From an uncultured Ruminococcus sp. (GTDB lineage Bacteria; Bacillota; Clostridia; Oscillospirales; Ruminococcaceae): DNA of 50,108 nucleotides. A model generated the notes under the pieces. It had not been told where the DNA came from. It did not search any database and saw nothing but the letters and a program-made list of their open reading frames with translations. Both the position numbers and the translations under genes were made by a program. Each line of letters starts with the position of its first letter. The stretch's first letter is position 1. The stretch lies in assembly GCA_902788785.1 (NCBI GenBank), contig CADALT010000030.1, positions 6,269 to 56,376 of the forward strand, written 5' to 3'. This document shows, piece by piece, positions 3,302 through 35,036 of this stretch.

Positions 3302-5557
3302 ATGAGCGGTCGTGAATTTGTATCATACAGGATCTCGTCTGATGTGCTGGCGGAGATATTCTCTGTTAACGGCATAGGCGACAGGGAATTTGGCTGCAGC
3401 GGCGGAGTACAGTGCGCTGTGGACGGAGATAGTCTTATATTTGCAGCGGAGAATGGTGCATATTCTCTGGCACAGCTTATGGTACTGAGCTGGAGGTCAT
3501 CAGAACTTGCAGAAGATGAAATGTCCGTGTTTGAGTCCCTTGCGGACGGCAAGCTTGGCGGAGGTATCGCAGATGTAACAAAGTACAGGCTGAAAACTCC
3601 ATACAATGGCACCGATAAGGGCAAGCTTGAACTGATAGCCGAGATATTTGCAAACACCGATGCACAGCGAAAGCTCGATGCTGAAAAAATACGTTCATAC
3701 ACCGCCGAGTTTATACCTTCTTATTGGAAAGAAGTTGGCAGCTTCGGGTTTGTAAAAGAGGTGTATTTCAGGGAACAGCTAAGCTGCGTGCTGGCAGTGC
3801 CCGAGGGCATGGATTGTACCGAGGAAAATGCTGTACTGATTATGAAGGACGGCGAGTTGAGATTTGAGGACAAGGGCGGCTTTGTCTGGAACGATGCTGC
3901 CATCGCAAAGGCTGTACAGCTTGTATGTCAGCCTAATGCTGCAAAGGGCGCAGAGGTCATAGCTAAGGTAAGCTGCCGTGAAGTGACCGAATTCTGCATT
4001 ATGTCGGGTATACTTGAGATAGCCGAGGGTGCATTCAAAGGCTGTGATGCGCTGAAAACACTGACCGTTATGCCGAGATTCGTTCAGATGGGCAGGGATA
4101 TGGCAGGCAGCGATGTTAAGATAGTATCATCGTCGGGCAGTACCGCAGAAAAATATGCCCGTGAACACGGCGCACAGTTTGAATGCATCGAACTGCCCGA
4201 GCGCACACCTATGGACGTGTGCATAGCCGCAGGTGTGGAGCTGACAGCGGACAGCGCAGCGGCTTACCGTTTCAAAGACAGCGAGCGTGCAATGCTCAAC
4301 GATCTGGAATTTGAATACGCAGACGGTACAAAGGACGAGCTGGACTGCGAGATAATAGATATGACCTCCGAGAAAGCCCGTGAGGCAGGCATAATAAGGC
4401 AGCTTGAAAGCTTTGGCAGGGTAGTGGGCACAGAGACCGTCCGCAATGACAGGAGCGCATATATAAAGGTATCGCTGTTGCAGTCGGCAAAGAAAGCCGA
4501 TGTGTATTCCTGCTTTATCGAGATCGACAGGAATGACCGCATTATCTGCATACATACCGAGAAAGAGTTCACTGCCGCACAGCTTGCGGTTTCGGGACAG
4601 AACAGCATGATGTACCGTTTCCTGACCCTTGCTTCATCGGTAAAGATAAACGGTGCGGCATCGGATCAGTTTGTCATACCCGAACAGTGGAAGGCGGCTC
4701 CCGTGGCAGAAGTAACGGCTGAACCTGTGGTCGAAACACAGCCCGAGCCTGTTGCGGAAGTTGCGGCAGAACCTGTGGTCGAAGTACAGCCCGAGCCTGT
4801 TGCGGAAGTAACGGCAGAACCCGTGGTCGAAATACAGCCCGAGCCTGTTGCGGAAGTAACGGCTGAACCTGTGGTCGGAATACAGCCCGAGCCTGTTGCG
4901 GAAGTAACGGCAGAACCTGTGGTCGAAACACAGCCCGAGCCTGTTGCGGAAGTAACGGCAGAACCTGTGGTCGAAGTACAGCCCGAGCCTGTTGCGGAAG
5001 TTGCGGCTGAACCTGTGGTCGAAGTACAGCCCGTTCAGTGCAAGGCGCTTGTCAGGGGCGAACGTTTCGATCTCGGCGCTATGGTAAATGAAGTTCTCAC
5101 TGTGGAACTTGACTATGAAGCCGAAACAGGCATAGACATTGACGGCTACCTGTTCCTGCTGGGACAGAACGGCAAGGTCAGGAGCGATGAAGACCTGGTG
5201 TTCTTCGGACAGAAAGCTTCTTCCGAGGGCGCAGTAAAGAATGATGAGCAGAAGACTTCAAGATTTACCGTGGAGCTCTCAAAGCTTGACAGTGAGATCG
5301 CAAGGCTGGCTGTGGCGTTTGCCATCTACGGCGAGGACGATACAAAGACCTTCGCCCGTGTCAGCAGGGCAGATGTGAACCTGTACTGCAAGGGCGAGAA
5401 GCTCTGTTCTTTCCGCCTTGAGGGACTTTCCACCGAACGCTCGACTGTTGCCGCCGAGATATATAACAAGGGCGGCTGGAAGCTGAAGACCGTGGGTCTC
5501 GGTTATAAGGAAGCTCTGAAAAGTCTGTGCAACAGCTTTGGTGTGCAGGTGCAGTAG
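3302..5557 (+). CDS. BspA-like / repeat-linker / TerD-domain protein
   Basis: A 751-residue protein without a signal peptide. Around residues 225-275 is a leucine-rich BspA-type unit (AFKGCDALKTLTVMP). Residues 467-578 are seven copies of a 16-residue unit like PVAEVTAEPVVETQPE. Residues ~580-751 match a TerD domain: IDIDGYLFLLGQNGKV, DEDLVFFG, then AEIYNKGGWKLKTVGLGY and a terminal LCNSFGVQV. TerD domains bind Ca2+ and occur in tellurite/stress (ter) systems and filamentous assemblies. No other ter genes are nearby, so this is an orphan. The start has GGGAGG upstream and a good promoter. The domain calls are by eye; the stress role is inferred from the family. Confidence 0.8.
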   Translation: MSGREFVSYRISSDVLAEIFSVNGIGDREFGCSGGVQCAVDGDSLIFAAENGAYSLAQLMVLSWRSSELAEDEMSVFESLADGKLGGGIADVTKYRLKTPYNGTDKGKLELIAEIFANTDAQRKLDAEKIRSYTAEFIPSYWKEVGSFGFVKEVYFREQLSCVLAVPEGMDCTEENAVLIMKDGELRFEDKGGFVWNDAAIAKAVQLVCQPNAAKGAEVIAKVSCREVTEFCIMSGILEIAEGAFKGCDALKTLTVMPRFVQMGRDMAGSDVKIVSSSGSTAEKYAREHGAQFECIELPERTPMDVCIAAGVELTADSAAAYRFKDSERAMLNDLEFEYADGTKDELDCEIIDMTSEKAREAGIIRQLESFGRVVGTETVRNDRSAYIKVSLLQSAKKADVYSCFIEIDRNDRIICIHTEKEFTAAQLAVSGQNSMMYRFLTLASSVKINGAASDQFVIPEQWKAAPVAEVTAEPVVETQPEPVAEVAAEPVVEVQPEPVAEVTAEPVVEIQPEPVAEVTAEPVVGIQPEPVAEVTAEPVVETQPEPVAEVTAEPVVEVQPEPVAEVAAEPVVEVQPVQCKALVRGERFDLGAMVNEVLTVELDYEAETGIDIDGYLFLLGQNGKVRSDEDLVFFGQKASSEGAVKNDEQKTSRFTVELSKLDSEIARLAVAFAIYGEDDTKTFARVSRADVNLYCKGEKLCSFRLEGLSTERSTVAAEIYNKGGWKLKTVGLGYKEALKSLCNSFGVQVQ
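4700..5035 (+). repeat. 48-nt x7 tandem repeat coding Pro/Glu/Val linker
   Basis: Exactly seven in-frame 48-nt units encode PVAE[VA][TA]AEPVV[EG][TVI]QPE variants. Near-identity at DNA level indicates recent expansion or homogenisation. The repeat joins the LRR-like part to the TerD domain. The minus-strand ORF at 4674-4931 is its shadow. Confidence 0.92.
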
Positions 5558-29117: not shown

Positions 29118-31046
29118 ATGAGATATTATATTTACGGATATACAGATACAGGCAGCTACAGAGATAATAACGAGGACGCTGTGCTGGTCAATAAAGAGAT
29201 AATCACCGAAGGCTTCTGTGAGTCGGTGGCGGATGCGCCGTTCATCACAGCGGTCTGCGACGGCGTGGGCGGAGAAAACGCAGGTGAGCTTGCATCCAAG
29301 CTGTGCTTGCAGTATCTGTCTATCGTTGATTATACCTCCGCTACGGATATGAAGCAGGTGCTTATGAATATCCACGGGAAGATCAAGCGCAAAGGTGTCA
29401 GGGTGAAAGATGCTGCGAATATGCAGACTACCCTGTGCGCACTGGCTGTGGACGAAGACGGCAAAGGTATGTGTATAAACGTGGGCGACAGCAGGATGTA
29501 CCGCTTTGTCAACGGCACCATCAGGCAGATATCCTCCGACCAGAGCTATGGTCAGTATATGTACAATAAGGGCGTTATCGACGATATTGAGGAGCTTGAC
29601 CCCAAGTACCGCAAAGCGATAATCTCATCCATGGGCAGCACACGCAGCGAACCTGATGTTACGCAGACCCCTCTGGTCAGCGAATTCGGCGCTGAACCCG
29701 ATGATATGATAATACTCACCACCGACGGCGTTTCGGACTACCTGACAGAGAACGAGTTTGAGGTCGGGCTGTCTATGGACCTGCCCATCTCCGAAAAGCT
29801 TGTGGCGCTGGCAAAGCTTGCCATAATGAACGGAAGTCAGGATAATGTCTCGATAATAGGCATCAAGCCTTTTTTGGATTTTGAAGAGCTGGCAGCGCTT
29901 ACTCGTCACGATGCGGTTGGCAAGACCGTTGACGTTAATGCTATGCTCAAAGAACAGCCTGATGAGGAAGAATTCGATGAGTTGAGCGACATACTGACCA
30001 TCGACCTTGATGAGATAATCGGCAAGCATAAGCAGACTCCAAAGCCTGCGTCTTTCGTTCCCGAGGATGAGCCCGAGGAAGAAACTATGCCCGAAGAAAC
30101 CTCGGAAGAGCCTGCATATGAGGAAGAACAGGCAAATGAAGAAGAACAGCTTGATGAGCCCGTTTATGAGGAACAGCCTGTCGGGGAGATTCCCTATGAG
30201 CCTGCAGCACAGCAGGGCAGCTACCATGAGCCTTTTGTTTTCAGGTATCAGCCCAAGGAGAACGAAGCATTCGTTCTTCCTGAAGTTCCTAAGCATGAAA
30301 TGCCTGTCGTAGAGGACGTTAAAACCGAGGATGCCGAAGTCCACGAGCCTGTCATAGAAGACGTTAAGCCCGAGGAAGCCGAAGTTCCCGAGCCTGTCAT
30401 AGAAGACGTAAAGCCCGAGGAAGCCGAAGTCCCCGAGCCTGTCATAGAAGACGTAAAGCCCGAGGAAGCCGAAGTTCTCGAGCCTGTCATAGAAGACGTA
30501 AAGCCCGAGAAAACCGAAGTTCCCGAGGCTGTCATAGAGGACGCTAAGCCCGAGGAAGCCGAAGTTTCCGAGCCTGTCATAGAAGACGTAAAGCCCGAGG
30601 AAGCCGAAGTCCCCGAGCCTGTCATAGAAGACGTCAAGCCCGAGGAAGCCGAAGTTCCCGAGCCTGTCATAGAAGACGTAAAACCCGAGGAAGCCAAAGT
30701 CCCCGAGCCTGTCATAGAAGACGCTAAGCCCGAGGAAACCGAAGTTCCCGACCCTGCCAAGAGTGTGGCGGACTTTTTCGGCAAATCGTCCGAAGACACC
30801 GAAAAGAAAGACGATGCTCCGCAGGTCGAACTTGATATAGAGCCGACCGCAAAGGCTGATGAGCCAAAGCACGACCCTGCTAAGAGTGTGGCAGATTTCT
30901 TTGAGAACAACGAGCATGGCAGATCTCCGCTGGAGTATACCGAGAGCCGTGAAAACTATGAGCTTGAAGCCCATGACCTGTTCATGCAGGCGCAGGCATC
31001 GCTCTCAAAGCTTACCACATTGTTCCCGAACAAGAAAAAACAGTAA
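29118..31046 (+). CDS. PP2C-type Ser/Thr protein phosphatase with a repeat tail
   Basis: A 642-residue protein. Residues ~1-245 are a bacterial PP2C (PPM) domain: TDTGSYRDNNEDA, CDGVGGENAGELAS, NVGDSRMYR, SSDQSYGQYM, TTDGVSDYL and SQDNVSIIGI, with the Asp residues that bind Mn2+/Mg2+. Such phosphatases reverse Hanks-type kinase phosphorylation in division and wall control. An acidic linker follows, then nine 15-residue repeats (about residues 407-541, EPVIEDVKPEEAEVP). Two copies of DPAKSVADFF bracket a spacer, then a helical C-terminus. No kinase gene is adjacent. The start is uncertain: ATG at 29118, or TTG at 29103 within TTTTGGGGC. Confidence 0.9.
   Translation: MRYYIYGYTDTGSYRDNNEDAVLVNKEIITEGFCESVADAPFITAVCDGVGGENAGELASKLCLQYLSIVDYTSATDMKQVLMNIHGKIKRKGVRVKDAANMQTTLCALAVDEDGKGMCINVGDSRMYRFVNGTIRQISSDQSYGQYMYNKGVIDDIEELDPKYRKAIISSMGSTRSEPDVTQTPLVSEFGAEPDDMIILTTDGVSDYLTENEFEVGLSMDLPISEKLVALAKLAIMNGSQDNVSIIGIKPFLDFEELAALTRHDAVGKTVDVNAMLKEQPDEEEFDELSDILTIDLDEIIGKHKQTPKPASFVPEDEPEEETMPEETSEEPAYEEEQANEEEQLDEPVYEEQPVGEIPYEPAAQQGSYHEPFVFRYQPKENEAFVLPEVPKHEMPVVEDVKTEDAEVHEPVIEDVKPEEAEVPEPVIEDVKPEEAEVPEPVIEDVKPEEAEVLEPVIEDVKPEKTEVPEAVIEDAKPEEAEVSEPVIEDVKPEEAEVPEPVIEDVKPEEAEVPEPVIEDVKPEEAKVPEPVIEDAKPEETEVPDPAKSVADFFGKSSEDTEKKDDAPQVELDIEPTAKADEPKHDPAKSVADFFENNEHGRSPLEYTESRENYELEAHDLFMQAQASLSKLTTLFPNKKKQ
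30336..30740 (+). repeat. 45-nt x9 tandem repeat in the phosphatase tail
   Basis: Nine in-frame 45-nt units encode EVPEPVIEDVKPEEA variants. It is similar in style to the 48-nt repeat of the TerD protein. The minus-strand ORFs at 29625-30974 and 30248-30910 are shadows of it. Confidence 0.93.
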
Positions 31047-31156: not shown

Positions 31157-31231
31157 AAAGGGTAAGAAAAAAGCATCATGAGTGCAGGGCTGTTCGTCCT
31201 GTATCATGTGGAGAAATCGGAGGAAAGTATA

Positions 31232-32908
31232 ATGAAGAGTTCAAAGGTCATCGCAGCGCTGTGTGCTGCGGCAGTAATGACATCTGCTGTTTCGGTGCTG
31301 CCTGCTTCGGCTGCATTGAAGAACATAACTTATCCCGAGCTTAAAGTTGAAGATAAGAGACTGGGCGACTATATGGATCTGGGCAAGCTGACCGATTGCG
31401 GCGCAGCTAAAAAGGTAGTCGTAACATATACTACCGAAAGCCTTGATGATAACAAGCCCGCAGGCGCAATGGCTGTGTTTGCAGAGTCTAAGGGCTGGGG
31501 CTGGGATCCTGTGGAGCTTGGAAAGATCTCCGTCAAGAACAATGACGGCAGCTGGACAGCTACACTGCCCGTTGATCTTAAAAGCAGCGATAAGTCCGCT
31601 ATGCTCATTATAAATGAGTATTTTGCTGATGAGTATAAGTCTACCATGGTCATCAAGAAGATGCAGGTGCTGGATGCTAACGGTGGTCTGCTCTATTCCA
31701 CCGATAAGGAAGAGAACAAGAATGCCATCAAGCCTGCAAGCAGCAGCTCATCAAGTTCGTTAAGTTCGACAAGCTCCGACAGTTCGTCAAGCTCATCAAG
31801 CTCATCTGACTCGACAAGTTCTGCAAGCTCCGCATCTTCCGCAAGCTCTGACAGCAGTTCTTCGAGCGCATCATCCGAGAGCAGCTCAAGCACATCTGAG
31901 AGCAGTTCAAGTTCAGCCGACAGCAGCTCAAAGCCCGATAACGGCAAGTATGCCCTCGGTGATGTTGACGGCAACGGTTCTGTGAACGTTGCGGATATAG
32001 CTGTAACAGCTACATTTATAAAGGGCATGAAGGCGCTCAGCACAGATGCTTATACTGCGGCTGATGTTAATAAGGATACGCAGGTAAATGTTACTGATAT
32101 AGCTATGATAGCTTCCCATATCAAGGGCATCAAGGCGCTTTCGGATAACGTGGATACTTCCTCAAAGCCCGATAACAGCTCGTCGTCCTCACAGGCGGAG
32201 AGTTCTTCAAGCACAGCCGATAGTTCTTCTTCACAGGCTGAAAGTTCATCATCGGCAGCAGACAGCTCATCTGTGGCTGAAAGCAGTTCTTCTTCGACAG
32301 CGGAGAGTTCTTCATCGCAGCCCGACAGCTCGTCTTCTCAGCCTGATACACAGGCGACATATACATCTAAGGGCTATAAGATCGAGCAGATCGACGGAGT
32401 GACTTATGTTGACGGTACACTGGTCGTAAACAAGAGCTATGGCCTGCCCGAGAATTACGGCAATGGTCTTACCAAGGAGTTCAGCGATGCGCTGTATGAG
32501 ATGCAGGGCGGTGCCTGGGCAGACGGTGTGACCCTGTACGTTGTTTCGGGATTCAGGAGCTATAATGAGCAGAATGATCTGTACTGGAATTATGTGAATC
32601 GTGATGGTCAGCCCGCAGCTGATACCTACTCTGCAAGAGCAGGTCATTCCGAGCATCAGTCGGGACTTGCAGCCGATCTTAATAACGCAAGCCCATCATT
32701 CAACGGTACACAGGCTGCCCAGTGGCTGCAGGCGCACTGTGCTGAATACGGCTTTATTATCCGTTATCCCTACGGCAAGGAGAGCCAGACAGGCTTTATG
32801 TATGAGTCATGGCACGTAAGATATGTGGGCAAGGAGCTTGCTAAGAAGATCACTGATTCGGGTCTTTCACTGGAAGAATACTACGGTATCGACTCATATT
32901 ATCACTAA
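31232..32908 (+). CDS. Secreted dockerin protein with a VanY-type D,D-carboxypeptidase domain
   Basis: A 558-residue protein. Residues 1-27 are a Sec signal (MKSSKVIAALCAAAV...ASA). Residues ~28-165 form a beta-rich domain with KGWGWDPVELG and NDGSWTATLP, carbohydrate-binding-like but unassigned. A Ser linker follows to ~232. The dockerin (~242-302) has two Ca2+ loops, GDVDGNGSVNVADI and ADVNKDTQVNVTDI, each with an IKG-[MI]-KAL helix. A second Ser linker leads to an M15B VanY domain (~372-558): VVSGFRSY, the zinc motif SARAGHSEHQSGLAADL, and ESWHVRYVG. It should trim D-Ala-D-Ala stems while attached to a cohesin. The ATG at 31232 has GGAGG upstream. Confidence 0.92.
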   Translation: MKSSKVIAALCAAAVMTSAVSVLPASAALKNITYPELKVEDKRLGDYMDLGKLTDCGAAKKVVVTYTTESLDDNKPAGAMAVFAESKGWGWDPVELGKISVKNNDGSWTATLPVDLKSSDKSAMLIINEYFADEYKSTMVIKKMQVLDANGGLLYSTDKEENKNAIKPASSSSSSSLSSTSSDSSSSSSSSSDSTSSASSASSASSDSSSSSASSESSSSTSESSSSSADSSSKPDNGKYALGDVDGNGSVNVADIAVTATFIKGMKALSTDAYTAADVNKDTQVNVTDIAMIASHIKGIKALSDNVDTSSKPDNSSSSSQAESSSSTADSSSSQAESSSSAADSSSVAESSSSSTAESSSSQPDSSSSQPDTQATYTSKGYKIEQIDGVTYVDGTLVVNKSYGLPENYGNGLTKEFSDALYEMQGGAWADGVTLYVVSGFRSYNEQNDLYWNYVNRDGQPAADTYSARAGHSEHQSGLAADLNNASPSFNGTQAAQWLQAHCAEYGFIIRYPYGKESQTGFMYESWHVRYVGKELAKKITDSGLSLEEYYGIDSYYH

Positions 32909-33173: not shown

Positions 33174-33623
33174 ATGAAGAATTCTAAGCTCGTAGCTGCT
33201 ATGTGTGCAGCTGCAATGGCAGTTTCAATGGTATCTCTCGCTGCATTCGCTAATGCAGAAAAGGAAGATGTAGCTGCATCTGCTACTGCACCTATCGATG
33301 CAGTTGTAACTGATGCTGAGGCTACCGATGCAGAGACCACAGACGATGAGACCACTGATGCTGAGACTACAGACGGTGAGACCACTGATGGTGAGACTAC
33401 TGACGGCGAGACAACTGCTGATGAGTACACCACAGGTGATGCTGACGGCAACGGTAAGATCGATGTTACCGATATCGCTGTAACAGCTTCCCACATCAAG
33501 GGCATCAAGGCTCTGAACGCAGCAGGTTCCAAGGCCGCTGACGCTAACCACGATGGTAACGTTGATGTAGGTGATATCGCAGCTATGGCAGCTCACATCA
33601 AGGGCATCAAGGCTCTGGGCTAA
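33174..33623 (+). CDS. Secreted stand-alone dockerin protein
   Basis: A 149-residue protein. Residues 1-28 are a signal peptide ending ANA, and ~40 residues of Thr/Asp/Glu repeats (TTDGE units) follow. The C-terminal ~62 residues are a complete dockerin with two loops, GDADGNGKIDVTDI and ADANHDGNVDVGDI, each followed by HIKGIKAL. There is no catalytic or binding domain. It could block or space cohesins, or act as an adaptor. Strongly biased codons (GAC/GCT/ATC) hint at high expression. The TTG at 33159 is rejected; the ATG at 33174 has GGAGG upstream. Signal and dockerin are near-copies of the preceding gene's. Confidence 0.9.
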   Translation: MKNSKLVAAMCAAAMAVSMVSLAAFANAEKEDVAASATAPIDAVVTDAEATDAETTDDETTDAETTDGETTDGETTDGETTADEYTTGDADGNGKIDVTDIAVTASHIKGIKALNAAGSKAADANHDGNVDVGDIAAMAAHIKGIKALG

Positions 33624-33638
33624 TTATTAGTTTGCTTA

Positions 33639-33669
33639 ACAGACATCCTTCGGGGTGTCTGTTTTTTTT
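33639..33669 (+). terminator. Terminator of the dockerin-only gene
   Basis: ACAGACA/TGTCTGT stem with a TTCG tetraloop region and eight Ts (33639-33669). Confidence 0.9.
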
Positions 33670-33670
33670 C

Positions 33671-33699
33671 TTGCTTTTCATAGAGGAATATGATATAAT
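33671..33699 (+). promoter_or_regulatory. Promoter reading into the 95-bp array
   Basis: TTGCTT (33671-33676), 17-bp spacer, extended -10 TGATATAAT (33691-33699). The expected start (~33706) is 5 bp before the first repeat unit. It overlaps the tail of the preceding terminator. Confidence 0.72.
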
Positions 33700-33710
33700 C
33701 ATTATAGTTC

Positions 33711-34343
33711 CCCTAGCCCGGGACGCCAACTCGTTACGCCTGTTTGCTTAAAAGATAAAACAGGCGCTCGGTAGCAATGTATAGTTGGTCGCTAAAGGCA
33801 GTTTACCCTAGCCCGGGACGCCAATTCGTCACGTAGTTTTGCTTAAAAGAATAAACAGGCGCTCGGTAGCAATGTATAGTTGTTCGCTAAAGGCAGCTTG
33901 CCCTAGCCCGGGTCGCCAATTCGTCACGTCTTTTTGCTTAAAAGATAAAACAGGCGCTCGGTAGCAATGTATAGTTGGTCACTAAAGGCAGTTTACCCTA
34001 GCCCGGGTCGCCGATTCGTCACGTCTTTTTGCTTGATGGCGTAAACAGGCGCTCGGTAGCAATGTATAGCTGGTCGCTAAAGGCAGCTTGCCCTAGCCCG
34101 GGTCGCCGATTCGTTACGTAGTTTTGCTTGATGACGTAAACTGGCGCTCGGTAGCAGAATATAGTTGGTCGCTAAAGGCAGTTTACCCTAGCCCGGGACG
34201 CCAATTCGTCACGTAGTTTTGCTTAATGGCGTAAACAGGCGCTCGGTAGCAATGTATAGCTGGTCGCTAAAGGCAGTTTACCCTAGCCCGGGTCGCCAAC
34301 TCGTCACGTCATTTTGCTTAATGACGTAAACAGGCGCTCGGTA
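33711..34343 (+). repeat. Exact-period 95-bp tandem array, 6.7 units, probable structured RNA
   Basis: Units start at 33711, 33806, 33901, 33996, 34091, 34186 and 34281; every spacing is exactly 95 bp and the last unit stops after 63 bp. Each begins CCCTAGCCCGGG[AT]CGCC and contains GGCGCTCGGTAG. These two blocks can pair (CTA/TAG, CC/GG, GGG/CTC, CGCC/GGCG) with bulges, and the A/T variable base falls in a bulge. The enclosed segment varies but can often pair: CGCCTGTTT/AAACAGGCG in unit 1, TTACGT/ACGTAA in unit 5, ACGTCAT/ATGACGT in unit 7. 95 is not a multiple of 3, so it is non-coding. Similarity to any known RNA was not testable here. Confidence 0.9.
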
Positions 34344-34376
34344 TGGTTGAAATAGTGTAAAGAGAGGTTTATAAAA

Positions 34377-35036
34377 ATGAGAATAAAGGGTCTGATATTC
34401 GATATGGACGGGCTTATGGTCGATACCGAAAAGCTGCTCACCAGATTCTGGCGTGAGGCTTCGGCATATTACGGCTGGGAAATGACGCAGGAGCACGTAT
34501 TGGGCATAAGGTCGCTGGCAGGGAAGTATGCAGGACCTAAGCTTCAGGCGCAGATAAGCCCCGATTTCGACTACGCTAAGGTCAGACTGAAACGCATCGA
34601 GATGATGAACGCTTACATCGAGGAAAACGGCATCGAGAAAAAGCGGGGGCTCGATGAACTCATCGCTTATGGCAGAGAAAAGGGTCTGCGGCTGGCTGTG
34701 GCGACGGCTACGGACAATGTCAGGGCGAAGAAGTATCTGGAGTCCATCGGGGTGTATCACCTGTTTGATAAGATCATCTGCGGCAATATGGTAAGGTGCT
34801 CAAAGCCCGACCCCGATATCTACCTCACAGCTTCTGCCGAACTGGGACTGCCGCCTAAGGAGTGCATAGCGCTGGAGGATTCGCCCAATGGAATAAAGTC
34901 TGCAAAAGCCGCAGGCTGCGTGCCCGTGTTCGTGCCCGATCTTACTCAGCCCGATGATGAGACCGCACAGCTTATGTTCGCTTGCTGTGATACTCTGGCA
35001 GATGTGATAGACGTGGTGGAAAAGCTCAATGCATGA
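34377..35036 (+). CDS. HAD-superfamily hydrolase, beta-phosphoglucomutase-like
   Basis: A 219-residue HAD subfamily IA protein. Motif I is FDMDGLMVDTE (nucleophile Asp and general acid Asp), motif II AVATATDN, motif III Lys in CSKPDPDIYL, motif IV LEDSPNGIKSA. An alpha-helical cap lies between motifs I and II. Relatives are phosphoglycolate phosphatases, sugar-phosphate phosphatases and beta-phosphoglucomutases; the substrate cannot be told from sequence. It starts 33 bp after the 95-bp array with AGAGAGG before the ATG. The array may thus be its leader. Confidence 0.93.
   Translation: MRIKGLIFDMDGLMVDTEKLLTRFWREASAYYGWEMTQEHVLGIRSLAGKYAGPKLQAQISPDFDYAKVRLKRIEMMNAYIEENGIEKKRGLDELIAYGREKGLRLAVATATDNVRAKKYLESIGVYHLFDKIICGNMVRCSKPDPDIYLTASAELGLPPKECIALEDSPNGIKSAKAAGCVPVFVPDLTQPDDETAQLMFACCDTLADVIDVVEKLNA

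Follow-up and report, generated by a model that had tools for sequence, protein, structure and literature searches.

A seven-unit, 95-bp tandem array in an uncultured Ruminococcus probably derives from a dispersed, REP/BIME-like hairpin repeat

The window analysed here, a stretch of 50,108 nucleotides from an uncultured Ruminococcus, contains a seven-unit tandem array that probably arose by local amplification of a noncoding, interspersed repeat of the Ruminococcaceae resembling REP/BIME elements. The best reading of these repeats as a whole is that they form a new dispersed superfamily, REP/BIME-like in character and often lying flush with stop codons. We consider the repeat an undescribed dispersed family, not a one-off RNA, because 28 copies were found in the genome of origin and because its relatives keep the hairpin and change its letters. 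An earlier note on this DNA, which had described the array, overlooked both the genome-wide interspersed family and the 5' hairpin of the units.

Organization of the window array

As the earlier note had reported, seven unit starts are spaced by exactly 95 bp (33711, 33806, 33901, 33996, 34091, 34186 and 34281); they were recovered by profile search, and TRF agrees (period 95, 6.7 copies, 87% matches, score 919). The array occupies positions 33711–34354 of the plus strand, the final unit being reduced to its core (TRF, nhmmer). Unit 1 (33711–33805) is made of a core (33711–33775) and a linker that is array-specific in part (33776–33805). More specifically, the core contains (i) a 5' hairpin, HP1, of sequence CCC-TAGCCC-GGG (33711–33722), backed by covariation in 65 units of the genome of origin; (ii) a constant box 1, TCGTTAC (33731–33737), little changed across all three clades; (iii) a middle segment of 29 nt (33738–33766), whose length is kept across clades and whose sequence is not; and (iv) a constant box 2, CTCGGTAGC (33767–33775). 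Units 2 to 6 follow on the same strand at 33806–33900, 33901–33995, 33996–34090, 34091–34185 and 34186–34280, and the truncated unit 7 at 34281–34354, all delimited with nhmmer.

The array lies between a gene for a small dockerin protein, upstream, and a HAD hydrolase gene, downstream, whose ATG is at 34377; about 33 bp separate the end of the last core from this codon, in line with the distance given earlier. The claim that no unit is coding also holds, since no ORF of at least 80 aa lies inside the array; a minus-strand ORF (34278–34760), antisense to the HAD gene, overlaps the array end. The extended −10 noted previously, TGaTATAAT, is present at 33691–33699 (plus strand), ending 12 bp before unit 1. 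We did not retain the idea that the array is promoter-driven: the −35 candidate, TTGCTT, is weak, with three of six consensus positions, and visual inspection revealed no similar promoter ahead of the other arrays. Nor did a simple promoter scan list a plus-strand promoter at the extended −10 site.

A terminator-like stem-loop is found 3' of the dockerin gene, outside the array (33638–33663, plus strand). Two proteins encoded upstream of the array (31178–32908 and 33174–33623 of the window) carry a dockerin type I domain, and one of them also has a VanY carboxypeptidase domain; such a pair would fit a cellulosome-forming Ruminococcus. TRF listed other tandem repeats in the window, with periods of 45 bp (30302–30756), 48 bp (4709–5033) and 36 bp (1–387); the 45-bp set codes for a PVIEDVKPEEAEV-like repeat located C-terminally in a PP2C phosphatase.

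A family dispersed over the genome of origin

The genome of origin (G000) spans 2.95 Mb in 67 contigs and is 90.6% complete. A first search of it with the repeat gave 29 matches, and profile searches of the retrieved loci yielded 96 units, three of which belong to another assembly (G001), where they sit on a 3182-bp contig 99.6% identical to a locus of the genome of origin. The latter thus contains 93 units, grouped into 28 arrays with one to seven units each, counts that are lower bounds because several arrays lie at contig ends. Consistently, a 14-mer ending in box 2, with one mismatch tolerated, has 74 matches in this genome versus none for the reversed control. With gene positions taken from a simple gene caller, 27 of the 28 arrays do not overlap a predicted gene, the exception, L050, overlapping a gene's 3' end. 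Thirteen arrays share their strand with the upstream gene, 14 have it on the opposite strand, and one has no upstream gene.

The exact period of the window array had been taken as a sign that length or phase is selected. This is not borne out by the family, in which the spacing of 65 neighbouring pairs ranges from 93 to 138 bp: 93 (two pairs), 94 (six), 95 (42), 96 (10), 105 (three), 110 (one) and 138 (one). Identity is 76% for linkers of the same array and 61% for linkers of different arrays; for cores, the figures are 88% and 83%. Since spacings vary elsewhere and both linkers and cores are more alike within arrays, the exact 95 bp of the window array probably reflects duplication. All the units of an array share one orientation (arrays being defined by strand), and neighbouring arrays on opposite strands were found in this genome at L030 and L039 only. 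At both loci (L030, 1572–3379; L039, 4729–5679), convergent arrays surround 0.6–1.2 kb containing a common second repeat, which at L030 has units of about 94 bp with a stretch resembling the linker of the window array. Note that several units of L034, L038, L047 and L052 bear an extra module (AAGCRTCAGCAAACGTCAGC...) after GGCGCTCG, in place of the usual box 2 end.

As far as tested, the repeat is undescribed, as the earlier note had suspected: it gave no match at gathering score in Rfam 15, and a literature search found no description of it; among the papers listed as containing motif strings, none looked relevant by title. In Rfam 15, the window array had no match, 13 loci returned one tRNA only, and 16 relative loci, searched with E values up to 5, returned eight matches, of which only a tRNA scored above the gathering threshold; matches far below this threshold touch or overlap repeat copies at L287 and L294.

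Unit structure and covariation

The elements of the unit follow a conserved order: a short 5' hairpin, TCGTYAC, 28–29 nt, and a CTCGGTRRC-like sequence. Of 62 matched units of the genome of origin, 60 have their two boxes 29 nt apart; in the second genus described below (g93), the distance is 28 nt in 46 of 75 matched copies and 29 nt in 22. HP1, formed in the genome of origin by the first 12 bases of the unit (YCC-N6-GGR) and followed by WCGCC, is the helix with the clearest covariation. In 65 units, 99.0% of the 195 cells of its three pairs are paired, with five cells altered on both sides, a level of covariation reached by none of 500 shuffles. A mixed alignment (46 sequences) gives weaker support: with a fourth pair added, 80.4% of cells are paired, and the covariation score is attained by 10 of 500 shuffles. 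Variants of the form GTCC-TCGGSC-GGAC occur at three loci of the genome of origin and in R. albus. At L043, L047 and L053, the alternative 5' hairpin GTCC-TCGGCC-GGAC has a loop complementary, by eye, to its tail; the commonest hairpin of this genome, with the TAGCCC loop, shows by eye no pairing with its own tail.

Covariation among units is thus clearest in HP1 and not in the two stems that the earlier note had proposed, which are invariant or unspecific. The bulged outer stem does pair, in 97.5% of 715 cells over the same 65 units; it is nearly invariant, with both sides changed in one cell and an observed covariation equalled by 31 of 500 shuffles, and it is not kept in R. albus 7, where a GTTT-like sequence replaces its GGCG part. 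The inner stem, said to change between units and stay self-complementary, has nine cells altered on both sides, a number above that of nearly all shuffles (three of 500 reach nine). Its support is nonetheless weak and unspecific, because slid versions pair almost as well or covary more: 71.3% of its cells are paired, versus 70.3% for a +1 slide and 69.2% for a +2 slide, and sliding by −3 gives 12 both-side cells and a higher covariation score. Folding of single units as plus-strand RNA does no better than shuffles (z from −1.05 to +0.62 for six units), whereas the minus-strand RNA of unit 1, the only one folded in this sense, has a z of −2.36.

A further helix, CGTYAC/GTRACG, looked plausible on 24 rows (77.8% paired) and was rejected on 91 copies: 80.1% of its cells are paired there, which is more than in slid versions (25–50%) but is reached by 500 of 500 shuffles, and one of its pairs is broken in 46 of the 91 copies. 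Folds beyond HP1 are therefore unproven, and mutual information in the g93 copies revealed no consistent inner helix.

Relatives in R. albus 7 and in a second genus

Scanning 29 genomes of the genus with a covariance model of the unit gave matches in three, i.e. the genome of origin, G001 and R. albus 7 (G022), the tested stretch of which matches plasmid pRUMAL02 (NC_014825.1) at 290 of 290 positions. The fetched stretches of R. albus 7 contain 29 units in 10 arrays, one of which is directly preceded, on its 5' side, by a pyruvate kinase gene. At the family level, a mixed model matched five of 297 genomes (the genome of origin, G041, G115, G120 and G275), pointing to a second genus, g93; the G115 match (L207, E 0.005) was judged by eye to be due to chance. 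A core model then matched five of six g93 genomes, with at least 43 copies in G120, 28 in G683, 20 in G275, three in G325, one in G684 and none in G209, 150 candidates being scored per genome.

An order-wide pattern search retained 15 of 394 genomes, including that of origin; most of these matches are attributed to chance because the reversed control gave eight. Beyond the genome of origin, a single one was judged real, a lone copy 3' of a tRNA in G389, from another family of the same order (L226), because it displays a hairpin and a matching tail, neither of which was part of the search pattern. The pattern CCTAGCCCGGGWCGCC found 89 stretches in a collection of genome contigs that may omit records near the window's genome; each had a single match, none was titled Ruminococcus, and we took them as chance. 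Viral contigs gave five single pattern matches and none with the g93 pattern, and a phage search for the repeat gave no match.

We analysed 90 distinct copies, nearly all from g93 (mostly from three sister species, orthologues included) and one from G389. A hairpin ending 4–11 nt 5' of box 1 is present in 81 of 88 distinct upstream segments and absent in seven. The best hairpin scores at least 5 in 94% of the 90 copies; this falls to 41% for random segments and 32% for shuffled ones. In 76 copies the inner stem has five perfect base pairs, and these copies include 17 distinct stems and 14 loops; a tally of 37 stems was discarded for the safer figure of 17, as it included longer and shorter versions of one stem. 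Hairpin replacement can even be followed at a matched site in sister species (L264 versus L269), where the hairpins differ entirely and are still hairpins, between flanks that are 98% and 93% identical.

Moreover, the loop tends to be complementary to the tail that follows the hairpin. For the 49 unique loop–tail pairs drawn from the 76 copies, the mean helix length is 2.76, versus 1.96 with shuffled tails, a mean reached by none of 2000 tail shuffles; the sister species and orthologues among the copies make such shuffle tests overstate independence in g93. Examples are AGC-C/GGC, AAC-C/GGT, AGT-C/GAC, TGTCC/GGACA and TGGGC/GCCCA; a single mismatch is found in each of the common types TGACC/GGACA and TGGTC/GAACA, and copies with an AAA loop (AAAG with ACCC) show no such pairing. 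An H-type pseudoknot between the HP1 loop and the tail was considered and set aside, on the reasoning that a link of 0–1 nt seems too short to cross a stem of 5–7 bp; for this reason, we prefer two mutually exclusive hairpins. Note that several g93 loci, such as L273, L298 and L307, share a recurrent module with a AATGAGCATATAAA-like sequence 3' of box 2.

The number of units also changes at matched sites of sister species, with flanks 85–100% identical: L210 has two units (172 bp) and L301 one (99 bp), with an extra hairpin beside it, and L282 has two units (189 bp) and L299 one (79 bp). These differences support local tandem expansion.

Position relative to genes

The gene upstream of the 90 copies is on the same strand in 60 cases, on the opposite strand in 24 and absent in six. 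As far as the approximate element starts allow, 25 of the 60 same-strand copies and none of the 24 opposite-strand copies lie within 9 nt of the end of that gene. In the genome of origin, seven of the 28 arrays have a same-strand stop codon no more than 8 nt away, and in three arrays near stop codons the TAG is supplied by CCCTAG at the left end.

This adjacency in both groups would be expected of a 3'-end RNA element, in which HP1, placed at the stop codon, would sense translation termination or protect mRNA 3' ends and box 2 could provide a terminator with its 5' arm. Also consistent with such a role, 39 of the 90 g93 copies lie between a same-strand upstream gene and an opposite-strand downstream gene, and 21 run into a terminator-like hairpin with box 2 as its 5' arm, of the CTCGGTAAC...GTTACCGAG type, with a T-run and in some cases paired changes. 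However, the other 69 copies have no terminator, in the genome of origin 14 arrays face away from their upstream gene, out of 27 that have one, and arrays of up to seven units serve no obvious need. We therefore regard this explanation as possible, if rather unlikely.

Alternative explanations

The loop–tail complementarity raises a more specific, and somewhat more doubtful, possibility, namely that the repeat is a bistable element of gene ends, in which the choice between HP1 and a loop–tail hairpin would be set by the terminating ribosome or a protein and would control termination or mobility, the pairing being kept by paired changes in more than one genus.

Another candidate is a protein-binding DNA array, HP1 and the boxes being putative sites for a nucleoid, replication or topology protein. 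Tandem repetition is in keeping with this idea, as are the boxes, which keep their sequence and spacing and do not act as a helix. The distribution is patchy, however, with three of 29 genomes of the genus, G001 counting only through a contig 99.6% identical to a locus of the genome of origin, and HP1 can be wholly replaced at one site and still be a hairpin (L264 and L269). Altogether, this makes a binding array improbable in our view.

We consider it more improbable still that the repeats belong to a MITE-like or foldback-like element with arrays as its ends. Near opposite-strand neighbours are convergent at six noticed places (L030 and L039, L195 and L197 in R. albus, L275 and L305 in g93), and L030 and L039 have internal sequence in common; yet most arrays are solitary, the interiors otherwise differ, no transposase was found, and a weak g93 match (L289, 381–436, E 0.005) belongs to a divergent pair about 1.1 kb apart.

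Finally, the promoter-driven tandem small RNA or multi-domain HAD leader envisaged by the earlier note, which could invoke the extended −10 just 5' of unit 1, the HAD start some 33 bp past the array and the double changes of the inner stem, above those of most shuffles, is scarcely tenable, because the arrays adjoin many different genes in both orientations, the others having no promoter, and because the proposed stems are invariant or unspecific.

Proposed origin and significance

We thus favour a dispersed, REP/BIME-like repeat. Its dispersal is the step that we infer: copies would spread through a trans-acting factor recognising the hairpin, as single-stranded DNA or RNA, together with the boxes, and would be tolerated at gene ends. 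Unequal recombination would subsequently lengthen or shorten the arrays, whose units would become homogenised locally. Consequences for nearby genes, such as a new stop codon, a terminator or perhaps a long HAD leader, may be side effects or later co-option.

As to the mobilising factor, the Y1 transposase (PF01797) has no match in the genome of origin (90.6% complete) or in G120, which is 98% complete and contains 43 repeat copies. It is present in four of the nine genomes examined, G120 being among the nine, and seven of the 10 Y1 loci were scanned (in G022, G041, G389 and G683), with no repeat copy in the fetched stretch. Because no Y1 was found in either genome, and no repeat copies at the scanned Y1 loci, we propose a REP-like repeat that would be mobilised by some other factor.

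If this reading is right, it would add a REP-like superfamily in Clostridia, a group absent from the main text of a REP survey (PMC3733652), and a hairpin with covarying loop and tail. It would also make it testable how repeats disperse in genomes that lack a RAYT, and whether mRNA ends are affected by hairpins at stop codons.

Comparison with known systems

CRISPR arrays combine near-identical repeats with unrelated, unique spacers, whereas the linkers of the present arrays are 76% identical within and 61% identical between arrays. The repeat RNA of a type III toxin–antitoxin system would be expected beside a toxin gene; the genes next to the window array encode a dockerin protein and a HAD hydrolase. 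In IS200/IS605 elements, subterminal secondary structures of the ends are recognised in single-stranded DNA. These ends, as treated in the part of PMC6006769 used here, resemble the repeat as a model for HP1; they differ in that no Y1 gene was found in the genome of origin or in G120. BrickBuilt, a MITE minisatellite dispersed 19 times in one strain of Porphyromonas gingivalis according to the sections of PMC4596501 drawn on here, similarly forms intergenic tandem arrays in restricted hosts. In those sections, BrickBuilt units are described as 23 nt long and without spacers, with a leader and a tail ending in inverted repeats; the present repeat, in contrast, has 95-bp units with a hairpin in each.

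The likeness to REPs, as the main text of PMC3733652 describes them, lies in palindromes that are placed between genes, close to gene 3' ends, and vary in their stems, and the repeat is indeed a many-copy intergenic palindrome (HP1), with 93 units and 28 arrays. REPs of the GTAG family are reported to supply TAG stop codons and to lie near the 3' ends of convergent genes (section 15 of PMC3733652); their RAYT (Y1 transposase) partner was not found in the genome of origin or in G120. No GTAG or CGTC tag was seen by eye at the end of the palindrome, the tails being GGC, GGAC, GAAC, GCCC and others in g93 and WCGCC in the genome of origin. Note that the main text of this survey contains 'ruminococc', 'clostridi' and 'firmicutes' 0 times. 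In BIMEs, REPs alternate in orientation, whereas the units of one array here all point the same way. Finally, the repeat differs from REPs in its architecture, the roughly 50 nt after HP1 containing two conserved boxes and the units running head to tail at about 95 bp.
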